A stretch of 47,982 bases of DNA from an uncultured Pseudomonadota bacterium. Lineage in GTDB: Bacteria > Pseudomonadota > Gammaproteobacteria > Steroidobacterales > Steroidobacteraceae. Below are positions 4,210 through 14,406 of the stretch, piece by piece. The stretch spans positions 1 to 47,982 of the forward strand of contig CAISHQ010000004.1 of the NCBI GenBank assembly GCA_903885195.1. Reading direction: 5' to 3'. Each line of letters starts with the position of its first letter. Position 1 is the first letter of the stretch. The notes below the pieces were generated by a model. That model ran no database searches. It saw only the letters and a program-made list of their open reading frames with translations, and had not been told where the DNA came from. The position numbers and the translations under genes were made by a program.

Positions 4210-4389
4210 ATGCGCGATATCGATCGGGCGCGGCGGCGCGGGGGCGCCCCCAAGGGGGGTGACCCGGCGTGGCGTCGTCTCGAGCGGCTGCGTGAGGACA
4301 AGCGCACCGCGGAACTCGTCAGCGATTTCGACGATTACGACATCGGACTCGACGACGACAAACCGAAACCCGCACGGCGCGGTCGCTAA
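4210..4389 (+). CDS. Small charged protein, possibly PA3496-like
   Basis: A 59-residue ORF from ATG 4210 (a TTG at 4192 would add six residues). It begins with a basic segment (RDIDRARRRGG), then WRRLERLREDKRTAELVSDFDDYDIGLDDD and a basic tail. The pattern of a basic helix 'RRxLExLxExK' followed by an acidic DFDDYD patch resembles small proteins annotated as PA3496 family (putative envelope integrity) in pseudomonads; that match is from memory and weak. No signal peptide or membrane segment. It lies 75 bases after gspF on the same strand, and its TAA shares the bases CTAA with the TAG of convergent dnaE2. Function unknown. Confidence 0.5.
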   Translation: MRDIDRARRRGGAPKGGDPAWRRLERLREDKRTAELVSDFDDYDIGLDDDKPKPARRGR

Positions 4390-7300
4390 CGGAAGTCGCG
4401 CGACCGCGTCAGCAGGCGACCGAGCTGTCGGCTGCGGTCGAATAACCGCTCGACGATGACGTGCGTCACCGACTGCTGCCGCTGCAACCGGCCCTCGGCC
4501 TCGAGCAGCCGCGCATCGAACAGGGCGCGCCGGTGCGCCTCGCCCACCTGCTTCCAGACGATGAGATTGACGTTGCCGGTATCGTCTTCAAGGGTGACGA
4601 AGGTGACGCCACTCGCCGTGCCTGGCCGCTGGCGTGTGACCACGAGACCCGCTACTCGTACGCGTATGCCGCTGGGTTGCATGAGCAGGTCGCTCGCCCG
4701 CAGCACGCGACGCGGCTCGAAGAACGTGCGCAGCAACGCGAGGGGATGGCGACCGAGCGTCAGACCGAGGTGCCGATAATCGGCAACGAGATCCTCACCC
4801 TCGGTGGGCTGCGCGAGCATCGGCACGGCGATCTCTTCGGCTGCGGGCGCAAGGGGCAGTTCCGCCTCCGTCCCGGCCACGGCCCAGAACGCCTGATGAC
4901 GATTGCCCGTCAGGGTGGCGCAGGCACCGGCCGCCGCCAGAGCTTCGAGTTGCCCGCGATCGAGTTCGGCCCGCACGGCCAGATCCTGCAAACTGCCGAA
5001 TGGGCGCACTGCGCGCGCTTGTACCAGGCGCTCCGCTGCTGCCGCACCGAAACCGCGCACGAGTCGCAGACCAAGGCGCAGCACCGGTCGTGCGCTCGTG
5101 CCGTCGGGTTCGAGCGTGCAGTCGTAGGCGCTGCACAGCACATCGACAGCACGTACCGTCACCCCGTGCGCCCGCGCATCGCGCACGAGCTGTGAAGGTC
5201 CATAGAAGCCCATGGGCTGACTGTTGAGTAGCGCTGCGGTGAATGCCGCAGGCTCGTGGCACTTCAACCAGGCAGACACGTAGACGAGCAGTGCGAAACT
5301 GGCGGCGTGCGACTCGGGAAAGCCGTACTCACCGAAGCCCTTGATCTGCTCGAAGATACGCTGCGCGAACGCCTCGCTGTAGCCGCGCTCGCGCATACCG
5401 CGGATGAGCCGCTCACCGAAATGTCCTAGCCCACCGTGGCGCTTCCAGGCCGCCATGGCACGACGCAGTTGATCGGCCTCGCCGGGCGAGAAGCCTGCAG
5501 CAACGATGGCCAGTTGCATCACCTGCTCCTGGAAGATGGGTACGCCGAGCGTGCGCTGCAAGACGCTTTTCACCGCATCGCTCGGATAGCTCACCGCTTC
5601 CTCGCCGTTTCGGCGTCGCAGATACGGATGCACCATGTCGCCCTGAATCGGCCCGGGGCGCACGATCGCGACCTCGACCACGAGATCGTAAAAATTACGC
5701 GGTCGTAAACGCGGCAACATCGCCATCTGGGCGCGCGACTCGATCTGGAAGACGCCAACCGAGTCGGCTGCGCAGAGCATGTCGTACACCCGCGGGTCCT
5801 CGGGCGGAACCTGTTCGAGCGCAAGCGGCGCAGCACCCTGACGGACACGCCACTCCGACACCAGCACCAGCGCGCGTCGGATCGCCGTCAGCATGCCGAG
5901 CGCCAGCACATCGACCTTCAGCAGACCCAGCGCATCGAGATCATCCTTGTCCCACTGGATGACGGTGCGCCCTTCCATGCCGGCGTTCTCCACCGGCACA
6001 AGCTCCTCGAGCGAATCGCGGGCGATGACGAAACCGCCGACATGCTGCGATAGATGCCGCGGAAACCCGCACAACTGTTCGGCCAGTTCACGCAACAAGG
6101 CGACGCGTGCAGCCACCTCCGGCGTGAGCACGACGGACTCGTCCGCCGACTTCGCCAACAGATCGAGTTGCGCGGGGCTAAAGCCGAGTACCTTGCCAAG
6201 ATCACGCCAGGCGCTGCGCGGACGGTAGGTGATGACGGTGGCCGCGAGCGCGGCACGATCACGCCCGTACTTCGCGTAGATGTACTGGATCACCTCCTCA
6301 CGCCGCTCGTGTTCGAAATCCACGTCGATATCGGGTGGCTCGTTGCGTTCACGGGAGATGAAGCGCTCGAACAGCATCGACATGCGCGAGGGATCGACCT
6401 CGGTGATACCGAGGCAATAACACACCGCGGAATTCGCCGCAGAACCCCGCCCCTGGCACAGGATGCCGCGACTGCGCGCATAAGCGACGAGATCGTGCAC
6501 GGTGAGAAAGTAGGGCTCGTAGCCAAGCTCGGCGATCAGCGCGAGTTCGTGCTCAACCAGCGTGCGCACGTAGGGTGGCATGACATCGCGTGCGGCAGAG
6601 GTCGCGGCGGCCGGGCCGTGGGTCGGTGGCGGCGGGCCGCCCCAGCGTCGTGCCGCCCCCTGCTCGACGAGCTCACGCAGCCACTCGGCGGCAGTGCGGC
6701 CCGAGGGCACGAGTTCACGCGGATATTCGTAGCGCAACTCATCGAGCGAAAAGCGGCAGCGCGAAGCAACAGCCAGCGTCTCGGCGAGTAGCGCAGGCGG
6801 ATACAGACGCGCCAGACGCTCGCGTTCACGCAGGTGACGCTCGCCGCAGGGCAGCAGTGCAAACCCGGCCTCATCCAGCGTGGTGTTCAGGCGAATTGCC
6901 GTCAGCGCATCGTGCAGCCGCCGGCGCGCCCGTACGTGCATGCATACCCCGCCTGCGGCCAGCAGCGGCAGACCGCTGCTCGCGCCAAGCGACTGCAGCA
7001 GGGCGAGGTGCGCGCGCTCCGTGCCATCGCGCAGCAACTCGACGGCAATCCACGCAGAGCCCGCAAAATGTCTGTGCAGCCACTCGGCGTCCGCGCGCAC
7101 GCGCGCACTGTCACGACACTGCGCCGGGCGCGGCGCCCACAGCAGCAGACAGTGCTCAGGTTCGAGCAGCGCCTCGACATCCGCGCGCTGCAGTACATAA
7201 CTCCCCTTCGGCGCTGCGCGGCGGGCTCGAGTAATCAGGCGGCACATCTGACCGTAACCCCGCCGGTCGGCGGCCAGCACGACGAGGGGCAAACCGCAAT

Positions 7301-7517
7301 CGAGATGAAGCTCCGTGCCGACGATGAGGCGCGTGCGGCGTCCCTTCAGCGCGGCATGGGCACGCACCACCCCTGCCACGGAACACTCGTCAGTCAGCGC
7401 GAGCGCAGCGTAGCCCAAGGCCTCGGCGCGTTCAGCGAGTTCCACGGGTTGCGAGGCACCGCGCAGGAAACTGAAGCTGCTGAGGCAGTGCAGTTCGGCA
7501 TAGGCAGGAGGCAGCAT
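4386..7517 (-). CDS. dnaE2: Error-prone DNA polymerase III alpha subunit DnaE2 (ImuC)
   Basis: Translesion C-family polymerase of the ImuA-ImuB-DnaE2 mutasome, responsible for SOS mutagenesis in bacteria without Pol V. 1043 residues, full length. Visible in order: the PHP domain start YAELHCLSSFSFLRGASQP and ALTDECSVAGVVRAH; the polymerase core with GRGSAANSAVCY and the catalytic acidic motif PDIDVDFEHERRE (about residues 394-406); EYGFPESHAASFALLVY; and a C-terminal OB-type domain (VRVAGLVVTRQRP … FVTLEDDTGNVNLIVW). ATG 7517 is the only sensible start: an in-frame TAA lies four codons upstream, and the conserved YAELH begins at residue 6. The start abuts a LexA box at 7517-7536, leaving no room for a normal leader. 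imuA/imuB lie 4 kb away, not adjacent as is common. Confidence 0.96.
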   Translation of the reverse strand: MLPPAYAELHCLSSFSFLRGASQPVELAERAEALGYAALALTDECSVAGVVRAHAALKGRRTRLIVGTELHLDCGLPLVVLAADRRGYGQMCRLITRARRAAPKGSYVLQRADVEALLEPEHCLLLWAPRPAQCRDSARVRADAEWLHRHFAGSAWIAVELLRDGTERAHLALLQSLGASSGLPLLAAGGVCMHVRARRRLHDALTAIRLNTTLDEAGFALLPCGERHLRERERLARLYPPALLAETLAVASRCRFSLDELRYEYPRELVPSGRTAAEWLRELVEQGAARRWGGPPPPTHGPAAATSAARDVMPPYVRTLVEHELALIAELGYEPYFLTVHDLVAYARSRGILCQGRGSAANSAVCYCLGITEVDPSRMSMLFERFISRERNEPPDIDVDFEHERREEVIQYIYAKYGRDRAALAATVITYRPRSAWRDLGKVLGFSPAQLDLLAKSADESVVLTPEVAARVALLRELAEQLCGFPRHLSQHVGGFVIARDSLEELVPVENAGMEGRTVIQWDKDDLDALGLLKVDVLALGMLTAIRRALVLVSEWRVRQGAAPLALEQVPPEDPRVYDMLCAADSVGVFQIESRAQMAMLPRLRPRNFYDLVVEVAIVRPGPIQGDMVHPYLRRRNGEEAVSYPSDAVKSVLQRTLGVPIFQEQVMQLAIVAAGFSPGEADQLRRAMAAWKRHGGLGHFGERLIRGMRERGYSEAFAQRIFEQIKGFGEYGFPESHAASFALLVYVSAWLKCHEPAAFTAALLNSQPMGFYGPSQLVRDARAHGVTVRAVDVLCSAYDCTLEPDGTSARPVLRLGLRLVRGFGAAAAERLVQARAVRPFGSLQDLAVRAELDRGQLEALAAAGACATLTGNRHQAFWAVAGTEAELPLAPAAEEIAVPMLAQPTEGEDLVADYRHLGLTLGRHPLALLRTFFEPRRVLRASDLLMQPSGIRVRVAGLVVTRQRPGTASGVTFVTLEDDTGNVNLIVWKQVGEAHRRALFDARLLEAEGRLQRQQSVTHVIVERLFDRSRQLGRLLTRSRDFR

Positions 7518-7536
7518 ACTGTTTATTTATACAGTA
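7517..7536 (-). promoter_or_regulatory. LexA (SOS) box of dnaE2
   Basis: On the plus strand the bases read TACTGTTTATTTATACAGTA, that is CTG-N10-CAG (7519-7534) with extended TA flanks, very close to the gammaproteobacterial LexA consensus. The first base of the dnaE2 ATG is the outermost base of the palindrome. A TATAAA-like -10 lies inside the box on the minus strand, so LexA bound here should block RNA polymerase. Site and direction are read from the sequence; repression is inferred. Confidence 0.93.
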
Positions 7537-7565: not shown

Positions 7566-9473
7566 TTACGGGGCGCTGAGCAAACCCCGTCGACGCATCT
7601 GCTCGACGATCAGATCGGCAGCTTGCTCAGCCGACACCTGCTGAGTGTCGATGCGCAGCTCCGGCTTCTCCGGCACCTCGTACGGCGAATCGATACCGGT
7701 GAAATTCTTCAACTCACCACGGCGCGCCTTGCCGTACAGGCCCTTGACGTCCCTTCGCTCCGCCTCGGCCAGAGACGTATCGACAAAGACCTCGAGGAAC
7801 TCTCCCTCGCCGAACAGGGAGCGAGCGGCGCCGCGCTCGGCGCGGAACGGCGAGATGAACGACACGAGGACGATCAGGCCAGCATCGACCATGAGCCTCG
7901 CCACCTCGCTCACGCGGCGAATGTTCTCGACGCGATCCTGCTCGGTGAAGCCGAGGTCCTTGTTCAAGCCATGCCGTACGTTGTCGCCATCGAGCAAGTA
8001 GGTGTGCCGCCCCTCAGCCGCGAGACGCTTCTCCACCAGATTGGCGATGGTGCTCTTGCCGGCGCCACTCAACCCGGTGAGCCACAACACGGCGGGCTTC
8101 TGCCCCTTCAGCGCAGCACGCAGAGGCTTCGTGACATCGAGTGCCTGCCAGTGCAGGTTCTGCGCCCGGCGCAGGGCGAACGACAGCAGTCCTGCGCCCA
8201 CCGTGTTGAACGTCATGCGATCGATGAGTATGAAACCGCCCAGAGTTCGGCTGTCGGCGTAGGGCTCGAACACCACAGGGCGATCGACCTGCAGCTCGCA
8301 AACGCCGATGTCGTTGAGCTCCAGGGTTTCTGCGGCAAGTTTCTCCAACGTATTGACGTTGATGCGATGCCGGATCGGCATCATGGTGGCGTTCGCCGTG
8401 ACACTGCCAATCTTCAGCAGGTAGGAGCGAGCCGGCAGCAGTGGCTCCTCGTGCATCCAAATAATGGTGGCCTGAAACTGCGTCGCCGACTCCGGCGCAG
8501 CGTCGGTTGCCGCAATTACATCACCGCGACTGACATCGACTTCGTCCTCGAGCGTGAGCGTCACCGCACGTCCGGCGGAAGCCTCTTGCAGGTCACCGTC
8601 CGCCGTGACGATGCGGTGAATCCGCGTGGTCCGCCCAGAAGGCAACACTCGCACTGCATCCCCGACACGGGCGATACCTGAGGCGATCGAACCCGCAAAG
8701 CCGCGGAATTCGGCGTTGGGGCGATTGACCCATTGCACCGGCATTCGCAATGGCCGATGCGCCACGTCGGATTCAACGTCGATCTGCTCGAGGCATTGGA
8801 TCAAGGTCGGCCCTTGATACCAGGGCATGCGCGTGCTGCGCTCGACGATGTTGTCACCATCGACCGCCACCAGCGGTATGGCAGTAACGTCGCCGAGGCC
8901 AATGCGTGTCGCGAACGCCCGATAGTCGTCCACGATCGCATTGAAGCGCTGCTCATCGAAATCGACGAGATCCATTTTGTTGACCGCCAGTACGACGTGC
9001 CGAATCCCGAGCAGGGATACGAGAAAACTGTGACGGCGGGTTTGTACGAGCACGCCCTTTCGCGCATCGATAAGCACCACGGCGAGGTCGGCGCCCGAGG
9101 CACCGGTGACCATGTTGCGCGTGTACTGCTCATGACCCGGCGTGTCGGCCACGATGAATTTGCGACGATGTGTCGAGAAGAATCGGTACGCAACATCGAT
9201 GGTGATGCCTTGCTCACGCTCGGCAGCCAGGCCATCGACGAGCAAGGCGAAGTCGATCTGACCCTGCCGCGTTCCCACCCGCGCCGAATCACGGGTCAAG
9301 GTTCGCCAGTGGTCTTCAAATATCGTTTTCGATTCGTACAGCAACCGACCGATGAGCGTGGATTTACCATCATCCACCGAGCCACAGGTGATGAACCTCA
9401 GCAGAGACTTGCGTTCTTCCTCAGCGAATCTCGCCGCGACGTCTTCGTCAGCCGTACCGGAATTCGCAGCCAT
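7566..9473 (-). CDS. cysNC: Bifunctional CysNC: ATP sulfurylase GTPase subunit and APS kinase
   Basis: A 635-residue fusion for sulfate activation. The N-terminal two-thirds is CysN, the regulatory GTPase of sulfate adenylyltransferase: P-loop [12 protein letters not shown] (about residue 31), [32 protein letters not shown], then elongation-factor-like beta-barrel domains. The C-terminal part is CysC, adenylylsulfate kinase: P-loop GLSGAGKST (about residue 466), [24 protein letters not shown] and [17 protein letters not shown]. Together with CysD it makes adenosine 5'-phosphosulfate and then PAPS, either for sulfate assimilation or as sulfate donor. Its ATG overlaps the cysD stop by one base (TGATG), indicating coupling. 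No reductase genes (cysH, cysI, cysJ) are in the window. Confidence 0.96.
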
Positions 9474-10423
9474 CAGAAGTAGCCTTCCTGCTTCTTCTTT
9501 TCCATTGAAGCCGCAGTATCGTGGTCGATCAGGCGGCCGCTGCGCTCGGAGGTGCGCGTCTGTAGCGTCTCGCGGATCACCTCGCTGATGGTCGAGGCCT
9601 CACTCTCGATCGCAGCGGTCAGCGGGTAGCAGCCTAACGTTCGAAAACGAACACTGCGCAACTGCGGGACCTCACCGGGGTGCAGCGGCATGCGATCGTC
9701 ATCCACCATGATCAACATGCCGTCGCGCTCGACTACCGGCCTCTTCGCTGCCAGATACAGCGGCACGATCGGAATGTTTTCCTGATGGATGTACTGCCAG
9801 ACGTCTGACTCCGTCCAGTTGGAAATCGGGAATACCCGCAGCGACTCGCCCGGGCGGTGACGCGCGTTGTACAGATTCCACAGTTCCGGGCGCTGATTCT
9901 TGGGATCCCAGCGATGCTCGGCGGTGCGGAACGAAAAGATGCGCTCCTTCGCGCGGCTACTCTCCTCGTCCCGTCGCGCGCCGCCGAATGCGGCATCGAA
10001 CCGATGCAGATCGAGCGCTTGCCTTAGCGCCTCGGTCTTCATCACGGTCGTATGGACTTGCGAGCCGTGGCTGAAGGGATTGACGCCGCGCGCCAGGCCC
10101 TCCTGATTGGTGTGCACCAGCAGGCGCATTCGCGCCTCCTTGGCCATCCGATCGCGCATGGCGTACATGTCGCGGAATTTCCACGTGGTGTCGATGTGCA
10201 GCAGAGGGAACGGGGGCGGTGCCGGGTAAAACGCCTTGATCGCAAGGTGCAGCATCACCGCACTGTCCTTGCCGATCGAATACAGCATGACGGGCCGTTC
10301 GCACTCAGCCACCACCTCACGCATGATGTGGATGCTCTCAGCTTCCAATCGCTGCAGATGCGTCAGCGTCGGCACGAAGCCGTTTCCCACCTCAGTCGAT
10401 TGCTTTACGTGCACACTCGTCAC
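9473..10423 (-). CDS. cysD: Sulfate adenylyltransferase subunit 2 CysD
   Basis: Catalytic subunit of heterodimeric ATP sulfurylase (ATP + sulfate to APS + PPi), partner of CysN. It has the N-type ATP pyrophosphatase signature [18 protein letters not shown], the [10 protein letters not shown] strand, [19 protein letters not shown], and the C-terminal [27 protein letters not shown] that ends nearly all CysD proteins. The open frame runs to 10684 but that extra N-terminus is antisense to the nitroreductase gene and unlike CysD. GTG 10423 gives 316 residues; GTG 10414, 10390 or 10375 would also fit, since the family starts close to [16 protein letters not shown]. Divergent from the nitroreductase with a gap of about 120 bases. 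Confidence 0.93.
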
Positions 10424-10543
10424 CCACCCGCTCTGTTTACCGACCGTGCCCTGCACCCTGAATTGTACGGCAGGCCATCGGCCTTGTGACTCGGCGCGCG
10501 GGCACGATAATGCCCACACCCACACCACCGGAAGCTGAACCCC

Positions 10544-11221
10544 ATGACTACCGTCACCGACGCCGTCCTCAGCCGCATGTCGGCGCGAGCCTTCACCGAC
10601 CAGCCTGTTGATTCGGCCTTGGTGCGGCGCATCCTGACGACGGCGAGGCAGTCGCCCTCGGGCGGCAACGTGCAGCCCTGGCATGTGATCGTGCTCGGCG
10701 GTGAGGAACTCGCCCGCCTCAAGGCCATCATGCGCGACAAACTCGCCGACCCGCGCGCGAAGGGCGATGGACCCGAGTACCCGATCTATCCGCGCGAGCT
10801 CGGTGAGCCTTACCGCTCACGACGGTTCAAGTGTGGCGAGGACATGCACGGCACGATGAACATCAGCCGTGAGGACAAAGCCTCGCGCTACGCCTTCATC
10901 GCCGGCAACTTCCAGTTCTGGAACGCCCCCGTCGGCATGTTCATGCTGATCGATCGGCAGATGGGACCGGCGCAGTGGGTCGACCTCGGCATGTTCATGC
11001 AGACGGTGATGCTGCTCGCGCGCGAGGCGGGTTTACACACCTGTGCGCAGGAAGCATGGACGAACTGGCACAAAACGGTCGGCGAGTTTCTCGGTCTGCC
11101 GCCGGAGCGGATGCTGTTTGCAGGGCTGGCGCTCGGCTACCGCGATGAGTCACATCCGGTCAATCGACTGCGAACGGACCGGGCAGCACTCGAGGAATTT
11201 GCGACCTTCCGCGGTCTCTAA
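10544..11221 (+). CDS. NAD(P)H-dependent nitroreductase family flavoprotein
   Basis: 225-residue FMN oxidoreductase of the nitroreductase superfamily. The N-terminal [42 protein letters not shown] contains the Arg-Ser and [10 protein letters not shown] segments that bind FMN, and the C-terminal [16 protein letters not shown] is the second FMN-contact region. Substrate cannot be told from sequence; relatives reduce nitroaromatics, quinones or enones. A purine-rich CCGGAAG lies about ten bases before the ATG. It is divergent from cysD and convergent with imuB. The stop codon is embedded in a short tandem repeat (11211-11272). Confidence 0.92.
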
Positions 11222-11275: not shown

Positions 11276-12754
11276 TTAGCCGAACACGCCGTGCCACCAC
11301 CACGTGTGCGGTGGCAGGCGTTCGCGGTAGACCCAAAGCTCAGCACCGCGCGGCTCGCGCACCACGTAGTAGTCGCGCGCCACGTCCTGGCCGTCCCACC
11401 AGCCGGTTTCGATGCGCTCGGGGCCCGCGATCCAGTGCAGTGCGCTCACTGCACAGGGCAGCGCTGCAGGCTGTCGCAGCAGCCACAGTGGACGGCGCAA
11501 CGTGCTCACATGGTAGAGCGCTTCAGCAGTGCACGGCGACGGCGCATCGAGTGCAGGTTCGGCGACGCGCCAGGCGATCTCCGGTCGGTGCTGCGGCACG
11601 AGACACAAACCGTAGACGGCCTCGCTGCCGAGCCGCGCCCGCAGGCGCTCGATGAGTGCAGGCGATTCTCGTCCTATCGCGCCCCCATGCTCGGCGGGGC
11701 GCCACAATGAATCACTGTGTGCAATGAACGGCTGCAGCACGCCGGAACGCAGCTCACAGTCGATAACCGCGGCAGACAACACCCGACGCGCCAGCTGCTC
11801 GCTGAGCACCGTGACGAAACGCTCGGCCGACACGTCGGCTGCCGCCAGCCGCACATCAAGTCGCGTGAACCGCCCGGCACGGTGCGCAAGCCGCAGCTTC
11901 AGCAGATCGACGCCACATTGTCGTGTGCGCAGGAACTGTTCGAGTTGATCGAGCAGCGGCGCAACATGCTGCAAGATCGCCGCCTGCGAAATGAGTTCAA
12001 AGGTAGGTTCGCTGCGTACGTGGAAGTGCTCGCGAGGCAGGAAACCGCGCCGCGGCTCGGCGGTCGCTCCACTCAACCGGTCGAGTGCGAGCAAGGCCTC
12101 TTTGCCGAACCGCTTGGCGAACCCGGCTCGCGGCAAGCGCAGCAGCGCACCGAGCGTCCGCACGCCGAGCGAGTCGAGTCGCGCCAGCGTCTCGGCCGAC
12201 CAGGCCAAACTCTCCACAGGCAGCGGCGCAAGCTCGCCCATGAGTCGATCGCGTGCGCGCACCATGATGTTGCGACCGGCGCGTGCGAGCACCAGTGCCG
12301 CAAGCGGCGTGGGGGCGAGTGCCCAGCGCGGCTCGAGCCCCGCTGCACGACAGCGCTCGAGCAACTGTGCACACAGCGCCTGAAGGCCGCCGAACAGGCG
12401 CACGCTGCCCTGCACTTCGAGCAGTACGGCGTCGGCCTCGAGACTGACCCGTGAGGTATAGCGATACGCCAACGTGCCAAGACGCCCAAGCATCTCGGGC
12501 GTGGCCTGCGATGGGGGCAGCTGCAAAGCGAGCCAGCTCTCGAGCACCTCGTCGAACAGCGAGTCGAGCACGGGCGGCAGGTCCGCGATCGCGCGTGCCT
12601 GCTGCGCCGCGCGGCGCCGTGCATCCACGGAGCTCGGTGCAGTAGCGGAACTCGGTGCAGTAGCGGAACTCGGTGCAGTAGCGGAACTCGCAGGCTCGAA
12701 GCCTGGGGCGCTGAAAGCGCGCCGTACCGAAGCGGCTCTCTCACGGCGTGCCAT
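11276..12754 (-). CDS. imuB: ImuB, Y-family-like mutasome protein with replaced N-terminus
   Basis: ImuB is the catalytically inactive Y-family relative that links DnaE2 to the beta clamp and ImuA. ATG 12754 is chosen because GGGAG sits six bases upstream; ATG 12796 is possible but lies deeper inside imuA. The protein (492 residues) is typical from about LAYRYTSRVSLEADAVLLEVQGSVRLFGGL through the DSLGVRTLGALLRLPRAGFAKRFG helix-hairpin-helix region to the conserved end ERIETGWWDGQDVARDYYVVRE … WWWHGVFG. The usual first ~70 residues (LWLALxLPxLPLE… AANxxARxxGxxPGM) are missing; instead there is a basic, Ala/Ser-rich lead with SSATAP repeats and a DLPPVLDSLFDEVLESWLALQLP helix. Overlaps the imuA stop by 14 bases, so coupled. 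Confidence 0.88.
   Translation of the reverse strand: MARRERAASVRRAFSAPGFEPASSATAPSSATAPSSATAPSSVDARRRAAQQARAIADLPPVLDSLFDEVLESWLALQLPPSQATPEMLGRLGTLAYRYTSRVSLEADAVLLEVQGSVRLFGGLQALCAQLLERCRAAGLEPRWALAPTPLAALVLARAGRNIMVRARDRLMGELAPLPVESLAWSAETLARLDSLGVRTLGALLRLPRAGFAKRFGKEALLALDRLSGATAEPRRGFLPREHFHVRSEPTFELISQAAILQHVAPLLDQLEQFLRTRQCGVDLLKLRLAHRAGRFTRLDVRLAAADVSAERFVTVLSEQLARRVLSAAVIDCELRSGVLQPFIAHSDSLWRPAEHGGAIGRESPALIERLRARLGSEAVYGLCLVPQHRPEIAWRVAEPALDAPSPCTAEALYHVSTLRRPLWLLRQPAALPCAVSALHWIAGPERIETGWWDGQDVARDYYVVREPRGAELWVYRERLPPHTWWWHGVFG
12633..12686. repeat. Three perfect 18-bp tandem repeats inside imuB
   Basis: Plus-strand unit CTCGGTGCAGTAGCGGAA occurs at 12633-12650, 12651-12668 and 12669-12686 without mismatch. 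On the imuB strand it encodes the hexapeptide repeat SSATAP. The unit length is a multiple of three, so copy-number change would lengthen or shorten ImuB in frame. Confidence 0.95.
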
Positions 12755-13433
12755 GCAGCGCTCCCGAAGCAACGCTCCACTCGATGTCGAAGGCACCCCG
12801 CCGCCCGCCGCGGCTCTTCAGCAACTGCAGTCGCGCGCCGCCCACCCGAAAGTGCAATTCGAGACGCAGCTCGGCGGGTGATGCGCACTGCGCCGCCGCC
12901 ACCTCGCGAAACAAAAATACCGGTGTGCGCTGGCGCTGCGCGGCCAACTGCAGACGACGCAGCGAACGCTGCAGCGCTTCGCCTGGGCGGGACTTCAGCC
13001 AGCCGAGCACGGTGGCACAGGCACCGGACTCGATCGCCTGCTCGAGCGCCCAGAGCGGCTCATCCGTACGCACCACGAGTTGGCGCTCGAGCGGCACACC
13101 GGCACCAGCGAGAGCCGGCGCATAGGGTTCGAAGGGCGGCGCAATCCAGGCGACCCAGCGTGCAGACGGTTGTTGCCCGAAGCGCACCAGCAGCGGCATC
13201 AGCAGCCGCAACTCACCCAAACCCGGATGCAGCGAGAGAATTTCGCTGAGTCCGTTCGCGGGCCAGCCGCCGCCCGGCAGTGCCTCATCGAGCGTGGGGT
13301 AACCCGTGCTGTGCGTATCGGTGCGTGCAAGGCTGCGCCCGCGCCACAGGGCAGGATGCTCGAGCAGACTGCCGAGCGGGTCGTCGGCCGCGGTGTCTGA
13401 AGAGAGTGAGGGAGTCCGGCCCATGGGGGGCAT
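12741..13433 (-). CDS. imuA: ImuA, RecA-like SOS mutagenesis protein
   Basis: 230-residue RecA/SulA-like accessory protein of the ImuA-ImuB-DnaE2 translesion mutasome. The body matches ImuA: LLEHPALWRGRSLART, STGYPTLDEALPGGGWPANGLSEILSLHPGLGELRLLMPLLVRF (the degenerate RecA-like P-loop region), WVAWIAPPFEPYAPALAGAGV, LWALEQAIESGACATVLGWL and a C-terminal RLQLAAQRQRTPVFLFRE … LELHFRVGG segment. ATG 13433 is used; ATG 13424 is three codons further in. It follows the small CxCxC ORF by 24 bases and runs into imuB with an overlap, so it is expected to be transcribed from the lexA promoter; I see no LexA box of its own. Confidence 0.92.
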   Translation of the reverse strand: MPPMGRTPSLSSDTAADDPLGSLLEHPALWRGRSLARTDTHSTGYPTLDEALPGGGWPANGLSEILSLHPGLGELRLLMPLLVRFGQQPSARWVAWIAPPFEPYAPALAGAGVPLERQLVVRTDEPLWALEQAIESGACATVLGWLKSRPGEALQRSLRRLQLAAQRQRTPVFLFREVAAAQCASPAELRLELHFRVGGARLQLLKSRGGRRGAFDIEWSVASGALHGTP

Positions 13434-13457: not shown

Positions 13458-13688
13458 TCACGACGCCGCCGGATCGGACGTCGCGGTGCGCAACGAGCGC
13501 GGCTGCGAGAACCAGCCATTGCGACCGCAACCACAGGGACAGCTGAACCGCTTCAAGCTCGTGCCGACCGCCGGTCGCGACGAGGCACGGACCTTGGGAC
13601 GCGATCGATGCCCCGCTGCCGAGCGGGCCTTTTTGCGGACGAGCGCGTCCGCCGCGCCCGGCGAGGGGCGCAATTCAAAAACATCCAT
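13458..13688 (-). CDS. Unrecognised small basic CxCxC protein in the lexA operon
   Basis: A 76-residue ORF filling the space between lexA and imuA on the same strand, 32 bases after the lexA stop and 24 before imuA. ATG 13688 has AAAGG about nine bases upstream; a TTG at 13697 is less likely. The protein begins MDVFELRPSPGAADALVRKKARS, is strongly basic in the middle (GHRSRPKVRASSRPAV), and then has LKRFSCPCGCGRNGWFSQP, three cysteines in alternating positions that could bind metal. Third codon positions are mostly G or C, as in neighbouring genes, supporting coding. I do not recognise the family. Its place in the SOS operon suggests a link with LexA or the ImuAB mutasome, which is inference. 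Confidence 0.5.
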   Translation of the reverse strand: MDVFELRPSPGAADALVRKKARSAAGHRSRPKVRASSRPAVGTSLKRFSCPCGCGRNGWFSQPRSLRTATSDPAAS

Positions 13689-13720
13689 GGAAACCAACCT
13701 TTAGGTTGAGGTACGAGGGC

Positions 13721-14362
13721 TCACATCAGACCTGCGGGCGTAGCCTTGCCATTGCTCGCACCGCGGCGCAGCACACCGACGACCACACCCTCGATGATCA
13801 AGGGCTCCTCGCGCAGATTGACGCGAATGGGTTCGAAGTCCGGGTTCTCGGGCAGCAGCCACACCGTCGGGCCTTCCTGCTTGTAGCGCTTCACCGTGAC
13901 CTCGTTCTCGAGGCGCGCGACGATGATCTGCCGGTTACGCACCTCGGGGGTGCGATGCACGGCGACCAGGTCGCCATCGAGGATGCCGGCGTCTTTCATT
14001 GACATGCCGCTGACCTTGAGCAGGTAGTGCGGGCGGGGCGAAAAGATGTCCGGATCGATATTAAAGCGCGCTTCAATGTTTTCTTCTGCCAAAATGGGCT
14101 TGCCCGCGGCGACGCGGCCGATGAGCGGCAGGCCGAGCTGCTCGCGCAGGATGTCCTTCAACTGGATGCCTCGCGAGGTGCCCGGCACGAGCGCAATCAC
14201 CCCTTTACGGGCGAGTGCGCGCAGATGCTCCTCGGCGGCGTTGGCGGACTTGAACCCGAGCTCTTGCGCAATTTCTGCCCGCGTGGGCGGCATGCCGGTT
14301 TCTGCAATAGCTCGCTGGATCAGACGGAGGATTTCGGTTTGACGGGGTGTGAGATCTGACAT
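13721..14362 (-). CDS. lexA: SOS repressor LexA
   Basis: 213-residue transcriptional repressor and latent serine protease of the SOS response. N-terminal winged helix-turn-helix: [51 protein letters not shown]. The self-cleavage bond is Ala86-Gly87 in [16 protein letters not shown], the nucleophile Ser121 in SGMSM, and the general base Lys158 in EVTVKRYK, all at the expected spacing relative to E. coli LexA. ATG 14362 is preceded by AGAGG at good spacing. Two LexA boxes upstream indicate autoregulation. It heads an operon lexA - small CxCxC ORF - imuA - imuB. Confidence 0.98.
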
Positions 14363-14371
14363 GTGGCACCT

Positions 14372-14387
14372 CTGTTGATCCATACAG
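14372..14387. promoter_or_regulatory. LexA box 1 upstream of lexA
   Basis: CTGTTGATCCATACAG on the plus strand (CTG-N10-CAG), nine bases upstream of the lexA ATG and just before the lexA Shine-Dalgarno. It is proximal to lexA; together with box 2 it mirrors the two-operator layout known upstream of E. coli lexA. Confidence 0.88.
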
Positions 14388-14390
14388 TAC

Positions 14391-14406
14391 CTGTGAATAC
14401 ATCCAG
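14391..14406. promoter_or_regulatory. LexA box 2, overlapping the start of the divergent gene
   Basis: CTGTGAATACATCCAG (CTG-N10-CAG), centre 19 bases from box 1. It covers the likely GTG start (14393) of the divergent FAD oxidoreductase, so LexA bound here could also affect that gene. The N10 core is weaker than that of the dnaE2 box. Confidence 0.75.

Follow-up and report, generated by a model that had tools for sequence, protein, structure and literature searches.

The 76-codon open reading frame (ORF) between lexA and imuA in the window, by which we mean the whole stretch of 47,982 nucleotides analyzed here, is practically certain to be a genuine coding gene, and its product is, judging from sequence comparisons, a previously unrecognised, genus-restricted protein of an undescribed family. 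Conservation is the decisive evidence for coding and comprises 18 intact orthologues, purifying selection and a bias of substitutions towards third codon positions. Regarding its function, we favor, with a probability of about 0.35, an SOS-induced metal-hairpin adaptor that would act on the general RecA, LexA and single-stranded DNA side of the response. Genes of a single lineage that have entered the core SOS operon may bring new control over RecA, LexA, cell division or mutagenesis. Here, close relatives that naturally lack the ORF, and one carrier that appears to be free of the mutasome, allow its role to be narrowed by comparison.

Coding status and selection

The features of the locus are compiled in Table 1. 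The ORF shares the minus strand with lexA, imuA and imuB, with lexA located upstream and imuA downstream of it. Its product of 76 amino acids (MDVFELRPSPGAADALVRKKARSAAGHRSRPKVRASSRPAVGTSLKRFSCPCGCGRNGWFSQPRSLRTATSDPAAS) was initially thought to end with the cysteine cluster SCPCGCGRNGW, which is wrong, as 17 residues follow (FSQPRSLRTATSDPAAS). The protein is indeed basic, as had been stated, with a computed pI of 11.6 (10.5–11.8 among the intact copies). At the place of the AAAGG element of the window copy, most orthologues have a GAGG-type sequence. A palindrome (CAACCTAAAGGTTG) 5' of the window ATG is not conserved, and no regulatory role is claimed for it.

Table 1 Features of the lexA-imuA locus in the window
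Feature	Position	Strand	Remarks
lexA	13721..14362	-	TIGR00498, 241 bits, above cut-off
SOS box CTGT-N8-ACAG, proximal, 5' of lexA	14372..14387	.	
SOS-box-like CTG-N10-CAG, distal, 5' of lexA	14391..14406	.	CTGGATGTATTCACAG on lexA strand; conserved in the genus
Small Cys-hairpin protein gene	13458..13688	-	76 aa; ATG at 13686-13688, TGA ending at 13458; orthologues, dN/dS, third-position substitutions
Ribosome-binding-like AAAGG	13698..13702	-	9 nt 5' of the ATG of the ORF
N-terminal motif MDVFELRPSPGA, residues 1-12	13653..13688	-	M1, L6 and G11 invariant in alignment A1
Basic linker, residues 21-43	13560..13628	-	length varies between species
Cys hairpin region TSLKRFSCPCGCGRNGWFSQPRSLR, residues 44-68	13485..13559	-	CPCGC, F60, Q62 and R64 invariant in A1; AlphaFold2 strands
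imuA	12741..13433	-	NF033429, 188 bits, above cut-off of 150
imuB	11276..12796	-	named from its position after imuA and weak Y-family polymerase matches
dnaE2 (imuC)	4386..7517	-	second DnaE, 34% identical to the other DnaE of the genome
SOS box CTGTTTATTTATACAG, 5' of dnaE2	7519..7534	.	

The length of the ORF is by itself unremarkable, because ORFs of 76 codons or more arise in 8% of dinucleotide-shuffled versions of the 287-nt gap. The GC content at codon positions 1, 2 and 3 is 0.60, 0.70 and 0.77, respectively. The GC-rich third positions pointed out in the initial annotation do match those of imuA, imuB and dnaE2. Position 2 is unusually GC-rich as well, however, and the contrast between the three positions is therefore weak.

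Selection on the orthologues bears out the proposal that the ORF filling the lexA-imuA gap is coding. Pairwise dN/dS values, one of the suggested checks, range from 0.03 to 0.37. On the same pairs, lexA shows values of 0.00–0.10 and imuA of 0.04–0.19, so that the ORF lies above lexA and mostly above imuA, and well under 1. Across five independent close pairs, substitutions at codon positions 1, 2 and 3 number 31, 22 and 81, respectively (chi-square p ~1.5e-10). The constraint at the protein level is strong and localised. Synonymous codon changes exceed nonsynonymous ones in the hairpin region (residues 44-68; 30 versus 3) and in residues 1-12 (6 versus 2 in 60 codons compared), while the corresponding counts are 18 versus 20 in the linker and 9 versus 16 in the C-terminal tail. 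The CPCGC motif is unchanged in all 18 intact copies, and among the species both TGT and TGC are used at each of the three cysteine codons, the residue itself being constant throughout. The copy in G002 is AT-rich (GC content of 0.45, 0.50 and 0.42 at the three positions), yet retains SCPCGCGRNGWFSQPRS.

Distribution, history and probable SOS control

Our census of the genus (24 genomes) yielded 18 intact orthologues of 62-81 amino acids, one apparently decaying copy (G011) and four genomes without the ORF; G005 was not scorable, since a contig end interrupts its imuA and lexA was not found. Among the 18 intact copies, 17 have their start codon 18-56 nt past the lexA stop codon. Only in G017 do two other genes, a glutathione-transferase-like and a glyoxalase/VOC-like one (named by eye; L041, 4590-6000), intervene, placing the ORF at a distance of 1.4 kb from lexA, and imuA still follows it there. 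Linkage to lexA alone is thus not absolute. In every carrier with an assembled imuA interval, the ORF is located immediately 5' of imuA on the same strand, except in G002, where no imuA was detected. The copy in G011 (L130) is open, but four otherwise invariant positions are altered (C52W, G53S, F60C and R64H), and it looks like a gene under ongoing decay.

When 217 genomes of the taxonomic family were searched with the family profile, 19 matched, all of them in this genus, one of 25, and samples of the order (296 genomes), the class (369) and the phylum (398) contained no convincing relative. Screening about 85,000 species genomes for the Cys-core pattern, which is strict and could be escaped by a strongly diverged relative, yielded 17 members of this kind and two spurious frames. 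Neither viral contigs nor phages nor plasmids held a relative, and an origin of the gene from a phage or plasmid thus found no backing in these collections. Several further matches were judged to be noise, namely other frames of longer ORFs (G038, G086), alternative frames of other long ORFs (L052, L053), a match antisense to a cation-efflux-like gene (G234) and four class-level matches with E values of 5e-4 to 9e-4. The carrier records are labelled uncultured Gammaproteobacteria or Proteobacteria and, in some cases, Steroidobacteraceae or Nevskiaceae. Two metagenome-assembled records labelled Klebsiella pneumoniae (L039, L045) carry the lexA locus of the genus, and their label appears to be wrong.

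In a tree of LexA and ImuA, both of the lineages that branch closest to the root of the genus (G017 and G019) carry the ORF, and the genomes without it occupy two distinct positions (G008/G010/G012 and G013). The initial annotation had named ORF-less intervals, frameshifts and unconserved cysteines in relatives as evidence that would speak against the gene. Applied here, these conditions do not refute it: the four absences encountered are nested among carriers and are read as losses, and the cysteine cluster, searched for between lexA and imuA in relatives, proved invariant in all intact copies. The simplest account would be a single acquisition along the stem of the genus, with about two later losses and a decay in progress, the number of losses being approximate because several deep nodes of the tree are poorly supported. 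These losses and the decaying copy indicate that the ORF is dispensable. In the ORF-less genomes, the gap between lexA and imuA measures ~62 bp (G008/G010/G012) or ~80 bp (G013), and in most other genera sampled the two genes are close or overlapping, without such an ORF. In four genomes of other genera (L104, L116, L117 and L118), a glyoxalase/VOC-like gene occupies the lexA-imuA interval. Together with the two extra genes of G017, a basal member of the genus, these cases show that the interval holds other cargo too, and a VOC gene may be its ancestral occupant.

The tandem SOS boxes 5' of lexA are kept across the genus, and the lexA-imuA interval of the window contains no SOS box and no promoter-like or sense-strand terminator-like site. 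Co-transcription of the ORF with lexA is likely because of this arrangement, which places LexA boxes at the promoter of the presumed transcript, and the ORF is very probably co-expressed with lexA under SOS control. The only terminator-like site lies inside the ORF on the opposite strand and is no more than shuffles lead one to expect. Regarding the wider cassette, cysD and cysNC (sulfate activation; 7566-10684, minus strand) split imuB from dnaE2 in the window. In several relatives dnaE2 lies close behind imuB. The ORF-less genomes G008, G010 and G012, unlike most of the genus, have dnaE2 away from imuB, either by tens of kb or on another contig.

Protein architecture and proposed role

The family shares a common layout of a conserved MxxFELRPSPGA N-terminus, a variable basic linker, the conserved core SLRRFSCPCGCGRxGWFSQPRSLR and a variable tail. 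AlphaFold2, run with 15 sequences, places strands at residues 46-49 and 57-60, which flank the cysteines, with a mean pLDDT of ~78 for residues 51-60. The model is weak overall (mean pLDDT of 60, pTM of 0.22) and unstructured outside the hairpin, and we rely on the local hairpin alone. The predicted fold is accordingly a short beta-hairpin round the cysteines, the remainder being predicted as basic and disordered. There are three invariant cysteines in the intact copies, with neither a conserved fourth ligand nor a conserved histidine, and a monomer therefore lacks a classical four-ligand site. The hairpin is nevertheless, on balance, probably metal-bound. No membrane span was detected, the 19-residue hydropathy peaking at -0.02 in the protein of the window and at 1.17 across the homologues.

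We propose that the protein would be made upon LexA cleavage and that its three cysteines would coordinate a metal, zinc being the most likely one, with a partner or another copy of the protein supplying the fourth ligand. The N-terminal peptide (FELRPSPGA) and the hairpin might each bind a partner, and the basic linker might contact nucleic acid. Such an adaptor would tune filament, repressor or single-stranded DNA complexes and would not be an obligate subunit of an ImuA-ImuB-DnaE2 complex. A more specific version is an undescribed SOS family whose minimal metal hairpin, built on three cysteines and carried by a basic tether, would modulate LexA or RecA directly; it is considerably less probable. 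If true, it would mean that one genus has added to its lexA operon a protein that regulates the SOS switch.

The strongest competitor, though a doubtful one, is the role of a mutasome accessory or modifier, which had been suggested in the initial annotation and is weakened by the distribution of the gene. It draws on the position of the ORF directly 5' of imuA, with both genes on one strand, in carriers with an assembled imuA interval, and on G017, where the ORF remains beside imuA though two genes part it from lexA. However, in G002 lexA is followed by the ORF with its motif intact and then by unrelated convergent genes. ImuA, ImuB and DnaE2 went undetected in this genome (83% complete), the sole DnaE there being the other one (32% identical); the three genes could sit in the missing sequence, but the site after lexA and the ORF is assembled and does not contain them. 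Conversely, imuA and imuB are present and the ORF is absent in G008, G010, G012 and G013. The ORF thus does not co-occur strictly with imuA-imuB-dnaE2, and because of these two converse cases an obligate mutasome subunit is unlikely. Additionally, the QPRSL stretch is unlike a beta-clamp motif, and its L is replaced by V, P or R in other species. Since one relative appears to have kept the ORF after losing the mutagenic-repair genes, the ORF probably serves the damage response more generally. The genome concerned (L043, Baikal deep-water, 1.4 Mb) shows an apparent loss of SOS mutagenesis with LexA kept.

A lineage-specific SOS inhibitor of cell division is a somewhat weaker candidate than the mutasome role. 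SOS division inhibitors linked to lexA are often small, unrelated between lineages and lexA-adjacent, as exemplified by SulA of pseudomonads, YneA, DivS and ChiZ, which are unrelated to the protein described here. The small, lineage-restricted and lexA-adjacent ORF shares this habit, and an inhibitor would fit its retention with lexA without the mutasome as well as its easy loss. In contrast to these proteins, the ORF product is strongly basic and carries a Cys hairpin, both of which are atypical of such inhibitors. It does not match the SulA-family profile, the SulA-like match at the locus belonging to ImuA, and its lack of a transmembrane segment sets it apart from membrane-type inhibitors such as YneA and ChiZ.

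Less probable again is a metal or redox sensor peptide in the SOS transcript, whose CPCGC would bind zinc, copper or iron and report oxidative damage. The invariance of CPCGC despite varying codons is consistent with such a sensor, as is the presence of only three thiols, which would suit a labile or redox-active site. No accompanying transporter or redox partner was seen, however, and the ORF remains in the lexA-imuA interval. Lastly, a translational spacer or leader that couples imuA translation to lexA, with an irrelevant peptide, would explain an ORF between the two genes that ends a few dozen bases 5' of imuA, but it is highly improbable, given that the dN/dS values nearly refute it, that constraint at the protein level is strong and confined to parts of the peptide, that the ORF persists without imuA in G002, and that imuA stays close behind lexA where the ORF is missing.

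Comparison with known families and systems

The description of the protein as unrecognised holds for every library searched: Pfam, NCBIfam, PHROGs, PADLOC and PDB sequences gave no significant match, and Foldseek against the PDB returned nothing meaningful (best E value of 4.5). The ORF would add a family missed by these annotation libraries, probably owing to its shortness and its restriction to uncultured genomes. The closest resemblance is to DUF6527 (PF20137), with a common stretch of 11 residues round CPCGCG that was found below threshold in 13 of 15 members (best E value of 0.018). At 14.8 bits versus the Pfam gathering cut-off of 23.6, and with 11 of 63 profile positions covered and the rest unmatched, the match does not suffice to place the ORF product in DUF6527, and convergence on a short Cys motif would be enough to explain the match. 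PHROG 15183, of unknown function, matched seven members (E value of ~0.02), and the match of one member to an E2 model in PADLOC (E value of 0.031) was treated as noise. Our literature search, with most subscription papers outside its scope, found neither a description of such a lexA-adjacent gene nor any paper that names DUF6527.

On the RecA side of the SOS response, the small proteins DinI, PsiB and RecX offer an analogy for the proposed adaptor. This likeness is meant as an analogy only, as neither Pfam nor NCBIfam gave a match of the ORF product to one of the three. The closest known system at the level of the locus is the lexA-imuA-imuB-dnaE2 (ImuABC) cassette, with which the window shares its genes, the order lexA-imuA-imuB and the SOS boxes 5' of lexA and dnaE2. 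Compared with this cassette, dnaE2 of the window stands apart behind cysD and cysNC with an SOS box of its own, and an extra gene is found between lexA and imuA that appears able to outlive the cassette.
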